A stretch of 34,866 bases of DNA from a virus: the IMG/VR virus record IMGVR_UViG_3300021957_000145, positions 1 through 34,866 of that record, one strand, 5' to 3'. Below the pieces are notes generated by a model. The model had not been told where the DNA came from. It worked only from the letters and a program-made list of their open reading frames with translations, and ran no database searches. The translations under genes and the position numbers were made by a program. Below, piece after piece: positions 6,460-30,201 of the stretch; position 1 is the stretch's first letter; every line of letters starts with the position of its first letter.

Positions 6460-7390
6460 AGTTTGTTGTGTATTGTCCTACTAACTCAACTTCTGAATTG
6501 TTTGAAAAATGTGCATCTGATGCGGCGGCGTTAATAGAGTTGTCCCAATCACACCTGTATATAAGCATTGATGAATCACCATTGTATATATAAACAAACA
6601 TAGGTCGGCTGCTAGCGCCAATGCGTCCTCTTGCTGGCAAAAGCGTAAATACACCACCTGTTGGCATTCCACCTATAGTAAACGGCAAACCATTTACACG
6701 GGCATGACCAGTAGAACTACCTTTATTGGTCAAATACATTCTGAATGAGAAGTTAACTACATTTCCAATTTTTGTATACTTAGCAGACTGTGTACCATAA
6801 ACAATACCTGTAGTACCACCACCAAAACTGAGGGTAGGCGACCAAGTGCCTTCTTCATAATCATCTAACTTATGAGCTGACGTAGTACCGCCGAGGTATG
6901 CACCGCCTGATAGGTAGAGGTCTTTGAAGTTGCCAGAAGCTGAACCTAAACTAATTGCGTCATTTCTGACGTTACCATTTCCAGTGTATGCTGGAAGAAG
7001 TTCATTGTTGCCGTATTTTAACGTGCAAGAATCACGCCCAACATACAAATCACTGCCAGAAACACCAATATTACCTACAGTTGTGCCGTCTTTCTGAATT
7101 TGCATAAGATCGCCATTAGAATTTAGTCTGTTAAGACGTAACATCGCACCACCATCACGAGTATGATAAGCAAAACCATCTGGCTTAAATCCATGCCCTG
7201 CAATACTTTGATCGGTACTTGTAGTACCCACCAACACATTTTCTGAACTATCAATCGTGATTGCTGTGGCGTCTGCGTTATCGTCAATACCAGTAGAAGA
7301 AAATCCAGTTAAAGGATAAGATAAATCTGATGCAGTAATAGTAGTGTCACCATTTAAGAGTTCTGCGATATTTTTTGAATTACTTGCCAT
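6455..7390 (-). CDS. Tail fibre protein, GIDDNADATAI / DDYEEGTW family, copy 1
   Basis: 311 residues. Residues about 25-60 contain STGIDDNADATAITIDSSENVLVG, the mid region has QKDGTTVGNIGVSGSDLYVG, and residues about 165-195 contain GNFKDLYLSGGAYLGGTTSAHKLDDYEEGTWSPTL. The tip that follows (AKYTKIGNVVNFSFRMYL onward) is variable. The 323-residue product of 18019-18990 has the same modules in the same order (GIDDNADATALRIDSNEKVLIG, KDAYLSGGIYLGGTDADHKLDDYEQGSWTPTL), so these are paralogues 12 kb apart. Expected to act in host recognition. The start overlaps the stop of 7390-8202 by one base. Confidence 0.8.
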   Translation of the reverse strand: MASNSKNIAELLNGDTTITASDLSYPLTGFSSTGIDDNADATAITIDSSENVLVGTTSTDQSIAGHGFKPDGFAYHTRDGGAMLRLNRLNSNGDLMQIQKDGTTVGNIGVSGSDLYVGRDSCTLKYGNNELLPAYTGNGNVRNDAISLGSASGNFKDLYLSGGAYLGGTTSAHKLDDYEEGTWSPTLSFGGGTTGIVYGTQSAKYTKIGNVVNFSFRMYLTNKGSSTGHARVNGLPFTIGGMPTGGVFTLLPARGRIGASSRPMFVYIYNGDSSMLIYRCDWDNSINAAASDAHFSNNSEVELVGQYTTNS

Positions 7391-26015: not shown

Positions 26016-27806
26016 CTACGCAAGATTATAGAATGTTCCAACATTCTTATATCTACTATGATTCCAAAATGTCATCGACTGTCCTCTATTACTAGATGGA
26101 GTTAATGATAGGTGTATCCAAGGATTACCTGTTCCAGTATTTTTATATTCTAGTAACAATTGATCGTGTGGAACATTCGCACGAATCCAAACCGCAATCT
26201 CATGGTACTCAGATTTTGATGAACCTCTGAACTGCATGTCGCAGGCCATTCCTCTTTCGTGTTGGGACGTTCCTTTAGCGGGACGGAAACCAGATGTTAC
26301 AAACATATTTGGGTATTGTTGTTTGATAGGTTCAAGTGAGTTAACCGCAATGTTCTTCAAGTTATTAATAATCTGTTCTGATGTCAATCCATGTTGCGGG
26401 CGTATCTTGTGTCCGAATGATGCTCGAGAAGAAATCATTCCGAGTGTGAAACTTGGAGACAACTGTAATGAATAATCAATACCATTAGATGGTGTTACTG
26501 TTACCTGTTCGACTCCTTGAACATTCTGATTACCAGCCGCTTCATTGTTTTCATTAGCGTTTGTTCCATCACTAGAACCATGATCTCCAACATCTACTGG
26601 AACTGGTGGAGATGAGAGTACTGTTCTTGCAGCACTGTTCACATTATAATTTCCTTCAAGTCCATTGTAAGAATAGTCGGAGAACTTACTAGGAAGTGCA
26701 GAACCATCTTTGATAGCGGCACGAAGTTCATCTTCTGTTTTCTCAACATCATCATCACCATGAAATCCACCTTCATCAGGCAGTTCAACCAATTCTTTTT
26801 CTGGAAGAACAATTGCTTCTGGTGGTTCTTCAATCTCTTCACCATCAGTATAACTAACTGCGCCTCTAGAATCTTTGAAGATAATATCTTGAGCGGACAA
26901 TGCGGCTGCTGGAGCTCTACTTGTCTTATTAAAATCAATAGTAGAACCAACTAAGTCCATTGCACTTGATGATGTAAGGTTCATAGTTGTGCCTGCATTG
27001 ATATCCATAATCGCATCAGTGATAAGATTTATATCATCACCATACATGAATACGCCATAACCATCGCCAATGAAATCTGTATTACCCTTAATACTCGTTT
27101 TGTAATTACCATCAGCAGCAATATCTAAATTAGCCTGCGTCTGTAGTTTCATATTACTTACTGATGTTGCGGTAATCTCTTGTTGTGCGGTAATCTCTGT
27201 AGACTCATTAGAATACATACGGATGTTTTTGCCTGCATGGAATGTAATGTTTCTTCCTACATTGAAGTTCAAGTCTTCATCTACTTGTGCATTCATAGAA
27301 CCACGAACATATACTTCACTGTCTCCGTCAATGTAAACCTTACAGTCTCCACGAACACGAACACTTTTATTCTGATGAACGATTTCAAAATCTTCACCAA
27401 CTACTTTAGTTACTTTAGTTCCGTCTGGATGAATCTCATAGAAAGTTCCAGAACGATGATACTCATGTATCCGCTCATGGCCTGGCGTATCATCCAGTTC
27501 TTGAATATGTCCACTCTCTGTTTCCTTCACATGATTGAAAGGATACTGGGCATTGAACTTTGTTTCTGGTTCTCCAGTTAAATCATCTACACGTTTTCTT
27601 TTATAGTTGACAACTGGATGTTGTTTACTTAAATCATTTACTGCAAGTCTATTCGTATCAACTTCATTTACTCTACGAGGATAGTATGAACGAGGATCGG
27701 CAAAACCATTCAATGTTTGTTGAGTAGATACTGTAACCTTAATCTCTTCACCAGCTCTTGGTGGTTCATCAAATACAATTTTGTTTTCTTCAATTTTATA
27801 TGACAT
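26016..27806 (-). CDS. Baseplate spike beta-helix protein with C-terminal M15-type peptidase
   Basis: 596 residues. N-terminal 80 residues contain NKIVFDEPPRAGEEIKVTVS. Residues about 95-330 are the gp5C/VgrG-like spike: HIQELDDTPGHERIHEYHRS, GTFYEIHPDGTKVTKVVGED, then repeating strands (VRVRGDCKVYIDGDSEVYVR, NFNVGRNITFHAGKN, DLNLITDAIMDINAGTT). An acidic linker (about 335-375) precedes the C-terminal domain, where TSGFRPAKGTSQHERGMACD and PWIHLSL supply His516, Asp523 and His565, the zinc ligands of the M15/VanY peptidase fold. It would combine the membrane-piercing needle with murein endopeptidase activity. It overlaps the upstream spike gene by one base. T4 gp5 instead uses a glycosidase lysozyme domain. 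Confidence 0.85.
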   Translation of the reverse strand: MSYKIEENKIVFDEPPRAGEEIKVTVSTQQTLNGFADPRSYYPRRVNEVDTNRLAVNDLSKQHPVVNYKRKRVDDLTGEPETKFNAQYPFNHVKETESGHIQELDDTPGHERIHEYHRSGTFYEIHPDGTKVTKVVGEDFEIVHQNKSVRVRGDCKVYIDGDSEVYVRGSMNAQVDEDLNFNVGRNITFHAGKNIRMYSNESTEITAQQEITATSVSNMKLQTQANLDIAADGNYKTSIKGNTDFIGDGYGVFMYGDDINLITDAIMDINAGTTMNLTSSSAMDLVGSTIDFNKTSRAPAAALSAQDIIFKDSRGAVSYTDGEEIEEPPEAIVLPEKELVELPDEGGFHGDDDVEKTEDELRAAIKDGSALPSKFSDYSYNGLEGNYNVNSAARTVLSSPPVPVDVGDHGSSDGTNANENNEAAGNQNVQGVEQVTVTPSNGIDYSLQLSPSFTLGMISSRASFGHKIRPQHGLTSEQIINNLKNIAVNSLEPIKQQYPNMFVTSGFRPAKGTSQHERGMACDMQFRGSSKSEYHEIAVWIRANVPHDQLLLEYKNTGTGNPWIHLSLTPSSNRGQSMTFWNHSRYKNVGTFYNLA

Positions 27807-28894
27807 TATACGACCCCTGATGATGACGATGTATCACTAGTATCTTCTGTTTGAATACCAACTGACTTTGCATAATCGGAAATAGATTGTTGATTATTTT
27901 TAACTTTTGAAGGAACACCTTTGGAGAACTCTTGTGGATAAAAATGGCCAGGATCGTTTGATATATCATTCTTCAATCCTGCTGAAGCCATTGCTGAGCG
28001 TGCAACACCAGTATATGGGTTTGGACTTCTACTACCTGTATCATACTTACCATTAACATATATCACCAAGTCAATTGCAACAGCAAACTCATGGTATGAT
28101 TTACTTGCCGCTTTTACGCCTCTAGATTTAATTGCTCTCTGCATTGCTGGAGTTCTGAAACCACCTTCTGCGCCGATGGTTGCATCATATCCTTCGTTCT
28201 GTGAAATAATATTAATGATACCTTGTGCAAATCTATTACGAACCCAAGGCAATAATTGATTTAACATTTTAGCAGTTTGTGCGCCTTTCCTAGACCCAAC
28301 TCCATCAAAGTCTTCAGCAGTCCACGTTCTTCCCCAAGAATAATCAGGAGCATCAACTTCAGTATTCGAATATGATTCGGGTGGTTTGTTTGTAGGCCTA
28401 TCAGACTGTCCGTCTTTTGTTACGAGAACAGTTGCGTCTGTAGTTTCGAATGGAGTTGCAAATTCTGTTGTAGTACCATCTGCAATGATAGTTACTGTTT
28501 CCAACCTATCAGTTTCTTTTGTTGTCTCTGGTGAGAAGTCAAAAGGCGCTCCACCTTGTGGTGCAGATGCGGAGGTATTATTGCCAGGAATTGTTCCTAA
28601 CACCATTGGTTCTTGCATATAATCTGGGTCACGCCAGAAACCTACACACCATGTACCTTCGATTGGGCCAGTGGGCGAACTACCCACACCACCAGAAGAT
28701 GCAGAGTTAGCGGGTTGCATACACAATGCCCAAGGTAAGTCAACTGTTGGTAGTTTAGTTTTATCTTCTGTATGATATCCAAAGATACGACAACGAACTC
28801 TTCCTAATGACATAGGGTCGCCTCTATCTTCTACCACACCGATCCACCAAACAAAACCATCACGGCCAGTAAAATAAGAAAGTTGTTGTTCCAT
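27806..28894 (-). CDS. gp5: Baseplate hub gp5-like: OB-fold plus M15-type peptidase
   Basis: 362 residues from the ATG at 28894. Residues 1-105 form the gp5 N-terminal OB-fold domain: FTGRDGFVWWIGVVEDRGDP, LGRVRCRIFGYHTEDKT, LPWALCMQP, GTWCVGFWRDPDYMQEPMVL. Residues about 200-325 are an M15-type peptidase: GFRTPAMQRAIKSRG, SYHEFAVAIDL (His268, Asp275), DPGHFYP (His317). The tail is a Ser-rich linker. It belongs to the central hub that holds the spike; the next gene supplies the beta-helix. The start at 28894 is chosen because AGGAG precedes it by 8 bases and a late promoter lies 20 bases upstream; the longer frame up to 28963 would overlap that promoter. The Gly of the usual HxxGxAxD motif is Ala here. 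Confidence 0.85.
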   Translation of the reverse strand: MEQQLSYFTGRDGFVWWIGVVEDRGDPMSLGRVRCRIFGYHTEDKTKLPTVDLPWALCMQPANSASSGGVGSSPTGPIEGTWCVGFWRDPDYMQEPMVLGTIPGNNTSASAPQGGAPFDFSPETTKETDRLETVTIIADGTTTEFATPFETTDATVLVTKDGQSDRPTNKPPESYSNTEVDAPDYSWGRTWTAEDFDGVGSRKGAQTAKMLNQLLPWVRNRFAQGIINIISQNEGYDATIGAEGGFRTPAMQRAIKSRGVKAASKSYHEFAVAIDLVIYVNGKYDTGSRSPNPYTGVARSAMASAGLKNDISNDPGHFYPQEFSKGVPSKVKNNQQSISDYAKSVGIQTEDTSDTSSSSGVV

Positions 28895-28913
28895 TAATAA
28901 ATTCTCCTGTATG

Positions 28914-28921
28914 TATTTATA
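28914..28921 (-). promoter_or_regulatory. T4-type late promoter at head of baseplate operon
   Basis: Exact TATAAATA on the minus strand, 20 bases before the gp5-like ATG at 28894. It is the rightmost late element seen and would start the whole leftward baseplate transcript. Confidence 0.75.
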
Positions 28922-28984
28922 CAGAAAACACAGAAGCGTGTGTGTGATACTGAAGACACACATTTATAATAATATAGTTATGGC

Positions 28985-29013
28985 TTGACAAATAATGGAA
29001 TGTATAATATAAG
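28985..29013 (+). promoter_or_regulatory. Sigma-70-like promoter of the plus-strand unit
   Basis: TTGACA at 28985-28990, then 17 bases, then TATAAG at 29008-29013; an overlapping TATAAT at 29003 would have only a 12-base spacer. TATAAGTA at 29008-29015 is also one base from the late consensus, so late use is possible. The expected leader is about 40 bases to the ATG at 29058, with AAGGA in it. Confidence 0.7.
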
Positions 29014-29057
29014 TAAAGGGTGATGTCAAATCACAGATATAAAAGGAATTTCTAAAA

Positions 29058-29438
29058 ATGAAAACATCAATCTTAGCTGCAGCAGTAGTTGTTGCAGGCA
29101 CACCCCTATTAGCTGAAGACGGTTTAAACTTCGGCGGTGAAGTAAAATCACTTTACAATGTAGACAAGTCAACAACTTCAGTAACAGTTAAACCATCTGC
29201 AACATATGGCATTGGTAAAACAGAACTAGAAGTAAGTTCAGTAATCTCTGCATTTGATTCTACTGCAGCAGACAACATGACATTGTTCAACACATTGGAA
29301 AAAGGTTCACGCCCAACTATTGACCTTTCTGCAACATACAACTGGACAGACTCTTTGGAACTAGAAGCAAAATCTTCTTGGGACGTAGATGCAGCTGCTC
29401 GTGGCGATATCACAATCGGCGCTACATTTAACTTCTAA
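29058..29438 (+). CDS. Small secreted outer-membrane beta-barrel-like protein (126 aa)
   Basis: 126 residues with a clear Sec signal peptide (MKTSILAAAVVVAGTPLLA, cut before EDG). The mature 107 residues are built of alternating amphipathic strands (GEVKSLYNVDKST, SVTVKPSATYGIG, TELEVSSVISAF, TIDLSATYNWTDS, LELEAKSSWDVD) and end ITIGATFNF. The terminal Phe after alternating hydrophobics is the insertion signal of outer-membrane barrel proteins. It is too short for a full porin, perhaps a four- to eight-strand barrel or an oligomer. It is on the strand opposite to the genes on both sides, with its own promoter and terminator. Phage outer-membrane proteins such as lambda Lom alter the infected surface; superinfection exclusion is a reasonable but unproven guess. 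No closer family recognised. Confidence 0.8.
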   Translation: MKTSILAAAVVVAGTPLLAEDGLNFGGEVKSLYNVDKSTTSVTVKPSATYGIGKTELEVSSVISAFDSTAADNMTLFNTLEKGSRPTIDLSATYNWTDSLELEAKSSWDVDAAARGDITIGATFNF

Positions 29439-29536
29439 TGAATCCTCAAGTCCGAACAGTTATCCTTATGTGGATGGTAATAGTACTACTACACTTCGTA
29501 GTGATACCTGTTTGGATGTGGAGTTTAGGATTATAA
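29438..29536 (+). CDS. Small single-span membrane peptide (32 aa), coupled to upstream gene
   Basis: 32 residues: MNPQVRTVIL followed by a hydrophobic run MWMVIVLLHFVVIPVWMW and a short tail SLGL. Its ATG overlaps the stop codon of the barrel-like gene by one base (TAATG), so it is probably translated by coupling. One membrane span from about residue 7 to 30 with Arg6 at the N-terminal side. The bidirectional terminator begins at its stop codon, so the unit holds exactly these two genes. It could be a membrane partner of the barrel protein, an exclusion or lysis-timing peptide. Too short for certainty, but the overlap and terminator position support it. Confidence 0.6.
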   Translation: MNPQVRTVILMWMVIVLLHFVVIPVWMWSLGL

Positions 29537-29568
29537 AAAAAAGAGGCGAGCAAAAACCCGCCTCTTTT
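29535..29568. terminator. Bidirectional intrinsic terminator
   Basis: AAAAGAGGCG (29539-29548) pairs with CGCCTCTTTT (29559-29568) over a 10-base loop. A T run follows on the plus strand and eight T on the minus strand, so it can stop both the plus-strand unit and the converging minus-strand unit ending at 29589. Confidence 0.9.
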
Positions 29569-29928: not shown

Positions 29929-30201
29929 CTACTGACACACTACTCTGGGAGTACGAGACCCATCAGAGTGATATACGAACTTAGACCAACACTGAGCAGT
30001 TCCGCCTTGTGCGATATTACCAGTGTGTATTGTCAGATTGTTATTCGTATACGTCTGTGTACTATTCTGATTAAGTATCTGCGTAAGTATGTGTTGTATC
30101 ACAACTTGCTTCATAACATTCGTGTTTGACACATTATCAAAGGCCTGAGCCTGTGAACCGAATGCACATACCATCGCTACTGTCATTAACATCTTTTTCA
30201 T
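29929..30201 (-). CDS. Small secreted protein, Asn/Thr-rich (90 aa)
   Basis: 90 residues with a strong signal peptide (MKKMLMTVAMVCAFGSQAQA, cut before FDN), giving a 70-residue mature protein. The mature part holds VMKQVVIQHILTQILNQNST, QTYTNNNLTIHTGNIAQGGT, AQCWSKFVYHSDGSRTPRVV and ends CQ. Its two Cys residues could form a disulfide in the periplasm. Family not recognised. A phage protein sent to the periplasm from an early-type promoter suggests a role in exclusion, lysis control or envelope change. It lies one base after the small gene 30203-30379 and 37 bases before 29589-29891. Confidence 0.7.
   Translation of the reverse strand: MKKMLMTVAMVCAFGSQAQAFDNVSNTNVMKQVVIQHILTQILNQNSTQTYTNNNLTIHTGNIAQGGTAQCWSKFVYHSDGSRTPRVVCQ

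Follow-up and report, generated by a model that had tools for sequence, protein, structure and literature searches.

A stand-alone gene for a predicted small outer-membrane beta protein beside gp5 in a Melnitz-like marine phage genome fragment

The gp5 junction

The stretch of DNA analysed here (the window) comprises 34,866 nucleotides of IMG/VR record IMGVR_UViG_3300021957_000145 and by megablast and tblastn is a fragment of a Melnitz-like genome, i.e. that of a T4-like methylophage of OM43 bacteria. The nearest named phage in these searches is Methylophilales phage Melnitz (OM43 host, Kyanoviridae, T4-like), whose gene order around gp5 is the same; baseplate genes share at most 78% DNA identity between the two, and the lysozyme half of gp5 shares 47% protein identity. 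Every large open reading frame (ORF) of the window lies on the minus strand, as had been noted from the sequence, and the small plus-strand gene that is the subject of this report is indeed placed at the gp5 junction.

gp5 is encoded by two ORFs across positions 26016-28963 on the minus strand, a split that is also found in Melnitz. One is an OB-domain protein whose C-terminal half weakly resembles M15 peptidases and endolysins, and the other carries the needle region together with an endolysin-like end. The OB-domain half (27806-28963, minus strand; PF06714, E 5e-16; 53% identity to Melnitz) has its first ATG at 28963, overlapping a T4-type late promoter motif, TATAAATG, at 28961-28968 on the minus strand; its true start is probably the ATG at 28894, which is preceded by AGGAGAA. 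The motif occupies the same position in most gp5-site relatives and is likely the late promoter of gp5. A second small protein of unknown family (90 residues, 29929-30201, minus strand) has a signal-peptide-like start and is conserved at ~50-55% in three other contigs (L146, L148 and L162).

The plus-strand gene (29058-29438) encodes a predicted small outer-membrane beta-barrel-type protein of 126 residues, an assignment that is based on family conservation, purifying selection, AlphaFold2 modelling and strand alternation. It is preceded by a sigma-70-type promoter (28985-29013) consisting of TTGACA at 28985-28990 and TATAAG at 29008-29013 with a 17-base spacer, and by a ribosome-binding site, AAGGA, at 29043-29047; AAGGA or AGGA is found upstream of essentially all family members. 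The positions given in the original prediction for the ORFs and for both hexamers are all correct, and its claim that the gene has a promoter of its own is strengthened by relatives: both hexamers (TTGTCA in one case) and the 17-base spacing recur in nine more members, with protein identities as low as ~50%, while the spacer sequence itself has diverged. The promoter is lost in members more distant than this, and it is unlisted in a generic promoter scan of the window because the scan requires T at the last position. From promoter type we infer that the small gene is transcribed early and gp5 late.

Between the plus-strand gene and the gene convergent to it lies a hairpin (29539-29568), with folding z-scores of -4.5 on the plus and -5.0 on the minus strand and no shuffle equally good. 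It had been described as strong and bidirectional; the folding is strong on both strands, but the terminator T-tail rule is passed on the minus strand only, since just four T follow the stem on the plus strand.

Export signals and predicted fold

Residues 1-19 (29058-29114, plus strand) form a rule-based signal peptide with Lys at position 2, a hydrophobic core and a cut after LLA; Ala19, at -1 of the cut, is invariant in the family alignment. The peptide is of the Sec type without a lipobox, mature family proteins are entirely devoid of cysteine, and cleavage leaves 107 residues in the window protein. The C-terminus, TIGATFNF (29412-29435, plus strand), has the form of a BAM beta-signal, and its F-x-F is invariant in 27 of 27 members. 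Both the signal peptide and the barrel-type C-terminus that had been proposed are thus borne out.

AlphaFold2 run on 26 diverse mature sequences yields a confident beta model (pLDDT 92.9, pTM 0.75) of six strands (residues 3-15, 20-33, 36-48, the last bulged, 68-76, 81-90 and 100-105) and one helix (56-63). The five models vary widely, with pLDDT from 42 to 93, and an input of four near-identical sequences gives only about 32. Alternation of inside and outside residues over the six strands, whose limits were taken from the AlphaFold2 model, is strong, at 3.49 versus 1.17 ± 0.35 in shuffles, and none of 5000 shuffles scores as high. A closed barrel is expected to have at least eight strands, and to our knowledge the six predicted here are fewer than in any known monomeric outer-membrane barrel. 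Taken together, the signal peptide, the F-x-F terminus, the alternation and the model support the proposal of a small outer-membrane beta protein.

Comparison with known structures points in the same direction at low similarity. The nearest solved structures in Foldseek are mostly outer-membrane barrels, including a designed transmembrane barrel (TM 0.45), OMPLA and OmpC, and none of the matches in solved structures or in the viral library falls below E 0.001. V. cholerae OmpU reaches TM 0.61 over the query, but since the query-normalised TM favours large targets this match lends little weight to a porin-like wall. Sub-threshold Pfam matches include the barrel families OMP_b-brl, LptD, Toluene_X and Phenol_MetA_deg, and no sequence homology to porins was found. 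Two invariant residues, D17 and R96, are located in putative surface loops, which points to a constant role in structure or interaction and away from variation with the receptor.

A family of marine phage proteins

Relatives of the protein occur in about 50 marine viral contigs at 28-96% identity. A first IMG/VR scan gave six near-identical loci; gathering neighbouring gp5 genes added relatives with 40-52% identity, all of them placed divergently to gp5, and family profiles then led to 30 loci, to twelve more contigs and to nine further ones, down to ~28% identity. Nearly all pairs with sufficient changes have a dN/dS of 0.11-0.47; a value of 1.5 comes from one closely related pair in which synonymous changes are very scarce. 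Judged by its relatives, these ratios and the conserved promoter hexamers, the gene is real, and its family is under purifying selection. The family is previously unlisted, having no match in Pfam, PHROGs, the PDB or cultured-phage sequences; five queries gave only chance matches (E > 0.1) among cultured phages, and pattern-limited scans of bacterial genomes yielded no relatives.

The usual arrangement is a gene divergent from the baseplate gene gp5, and in Melnitz-like contigs that extend far enough it is situated between gp5 and a phrog_4074-like gene. Distant relatives belong to other T4-like marine phages, where their surroundings differ and in some cases include nearby genes for ribonucleotide reductase and glutaredoxin; a glutaredoxin gene is close by in L184, L194 and L195. 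Within the window the gene has no link to nutrient genes.

The 32-residue frame

A hydrophobic ORF of 32 residues (29438-29536, plus strand) begins at a TAATG overlap with the stop codon of the outer-membrane gene; it is lineage-specific and of uncertain status. The original prediction joined the two into a two-part envelope module of barrel and coupled membrane peptide. The overlap would fit such a pair, as would the hydrophobicity of the peptide, which exceeds that of all ~800 equally long ORFs from a random model. The 32-codon frame lacks a clear ribosome-binding site, however, and is present only in the window and in two contigs (L002 and L003) of nearly identical DNA. None of the other family members examined has a counterpart downstream; what follows the gene there is the hairpin or a neighbour that lacks any comparable frame. 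The coupled module appears very improbable. The ORF may be a recent lineage-specific gene; its distribution among contigs rules it out as a conserved component. A 31-residue minus-strand ORF annotated at this site in Melnitz was considered as a counterpart and ruled out, being an antisense shadow of pqqA.

The variable gp5 flank

Among 33 loci the gp5 flank carries this gene in 11, a tRNA without it in 11 and pqqA in four, and in some nothing. In three contigs (L004-L006) a copy with 93-96% identity instead separates a structural gene from the phage curli operon, and since these copies retain a remnant of the gp5-side late promoter they probably derive from the gp5 site. In a single contig, L007 (3632-4497), the gene has gp5 as one neighbour and curli as the other; a plain misassembly of window-type and L005-type sequence is unlikely there, as the gene has substitutions absent from both. 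The gene had been proposed to be acquired as a cassette. The flank is variable, as this would have it, but comparison of contigs indicates that the gene is old and gp5-linked across Melnitz-like phages.

In L004-L006 and L007 the gene abuts the curli operon at its 3' end, which raises the question of a lysis or envelope-weakening helper, or of a protein that works with the CsgG/CsgF pore of phage curli. The pore is likewise a phage-encoded outer-membrane protein of the same phages (Melnitz and pelagimyophages), and it is adjacent in these four contigs. CsgG and CsgF are unrelated in sequence to the family, however; most members are away from curli, several curli loci adjoin the structural gene directly with no relative found there, and Melnitz itself has curli and lacks the outer-membrane gene. 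The promoter, moreover, is of early rather than late type, and such a role is improbable.

Other occupants of the flank are of separate interest. A tRNA-Pro gene 3' of the outer-membrane gene is found by ARAGORN in L016, with matching downstream sequence in L146-L149. In L008 (~6735-6810, plus strand) and in Melnitz (MZ577097.1) the phrog_4074-like gene and gp5 are separated by an unannotated pqqA, which is also present there in L019, L020, L042 and L047; PF08042 matches it with E 3e-9 for Melnitz and 1e-11 for L019. The annotated Melnitz product QZI94879.1 is the antisense shadow of this gene. PQQ serves methanol dehydrogenase. PqqA has been reported from a Lake Baikal Methylophilaceae phage (PMC7678222) and is unmentioned in the Melnitz paper.

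Relation to cyanophage DUF680 and other small barrels

The closest known family in fold is cyanophage PF24653 Phage_OMP (DUF680, PhCOG173, phrog_417; e.g. P-SSM4 YP_214749), which is present in 401 phage records and supplies the top matches in the viral Foldseek library (TM 0.46-0.52, E 0.004-0.02). Both families consist of beta-rich proteins of ~120 residues of small outer-membrane type, with a signal peptide and a C-terminal aromatic residue, encoded by stand-alone genes of T4-like marine phages. In several cyanophages the DUF680 gene is by nrdC or pstS, and once it follows a tRNA array; the Melnitz-like members of the present family are, by contrast, divergent to gp5, and the family lacks the GPYV motif of PF24653. 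No member matches the PF24653 HMM (0 of 26; the P-SSM4 protein scores 7.9e-40) or phrog_417 (0 of 10). A full-length hhalign probability of 77% came largely from the signal peptides and drops to 5.6% for mature sequences alone, so homology is unproven; the mature profile score is 20 versus a maximum of 16.7 in 60 column shuffles.

The DUF680 protein has been proposed to respond to phosphate limitation, and in cyanophage S-TIM4 its gene almost completely lost function during evolution on the sub-optimal host Synechococcus WH8102 (PMC6224464). A DUF680 protein has been reported among the virion proteins of cyanophage S-SZBM1 (PMC9146016). That finding, together with gp5 as a neighbour, would fit a minor virion or baseplate component. 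Enav et al. nonetheless class DUF680 as non-structural (PMC6224464), and the window protein has a signal peptide and beta-signal and is encoded on the opposite strand from gp5 behind an early-type promoter, making it a poor candidate for a virion part.

The eight-strand barrels Lom of phage lambda, Ail and OmpX are also small outer-membrane proteins, Lom being phage-borne, but they have about 150-190 residues versus 107 and the six predicted strands of the window protein. The family has no Pfam match to Ail_Lom, and Lom is no relative in sequence.

A proposed role in the infected envelope

The phage envelope proteins Cor and Llp block superinfection, and an early outer-membrane protein could similarly mask or displace the surface receptor of related phages. 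The early-type promoter of its own, the moron-like organisation and the scattered occurrence at a variable site (in 11 of 33 loci) would all suit such an exclusion function. The best-known outer-membrane exclusion proteins are lipoproteins, however, whereas the window protein lacks cysteine, and the invariance of residues in two putative surface loops also argues against receptor masking; superinfection exclusion is thus possible though on balance unlikely.

The most likely role of the protein is to remodel the outer membrane of the infected cell. As to how, the tentatively preferred account, held with a little less than even confidence, is a stand-alone early gene for an outer-membrane beta protein that acts as an oligomeric mini-porin altering small-solute permeability. 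A T4-like OM43 phage would express the gene early, as the promoter type suggests; the small beta protein would be exported by Sec and inserted by BAM via its C-terminal F-x-F, thereby remodelling what is presumed to be its site, the outer membrane. An oligomer is proposed because one chain has only six strands: such chains may associate into a mini-porin, which would change small-solute permeability during infection, by analogy with the cyanophage DUF680 proteins. Because of the invariant residues in putative surface loops and the DUF680 parallel, a permeability role in an oligomer is preferred to receptor blocking, though only modestly. It is a more doubtful proposition that a six-strand transmembrane beta subunit needing oligomerisation to close its pore represents a new architecture that has spread through the T4-like phages of marine bacteria and has converged with cyanophage DUF680.

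Phage-made outer-membrane proteins of abundant open-ocean bacteria are almost unstudied. The present family is a second small-barrel family, which shows no detectable sequence kinship to DUF680 yet resembles it in size, in predicted fold and in having stand-alone genes. A host-dependent fitness effect should be testable, given the loss of DUF680 on a sub-optimal host (PMC6224464) and the fact that OM43 phages are cultured. Two such families in marine T4-like phages suggest that remodelling the host's outer membrane at an early stage of infection has repeatedly paid off for them.
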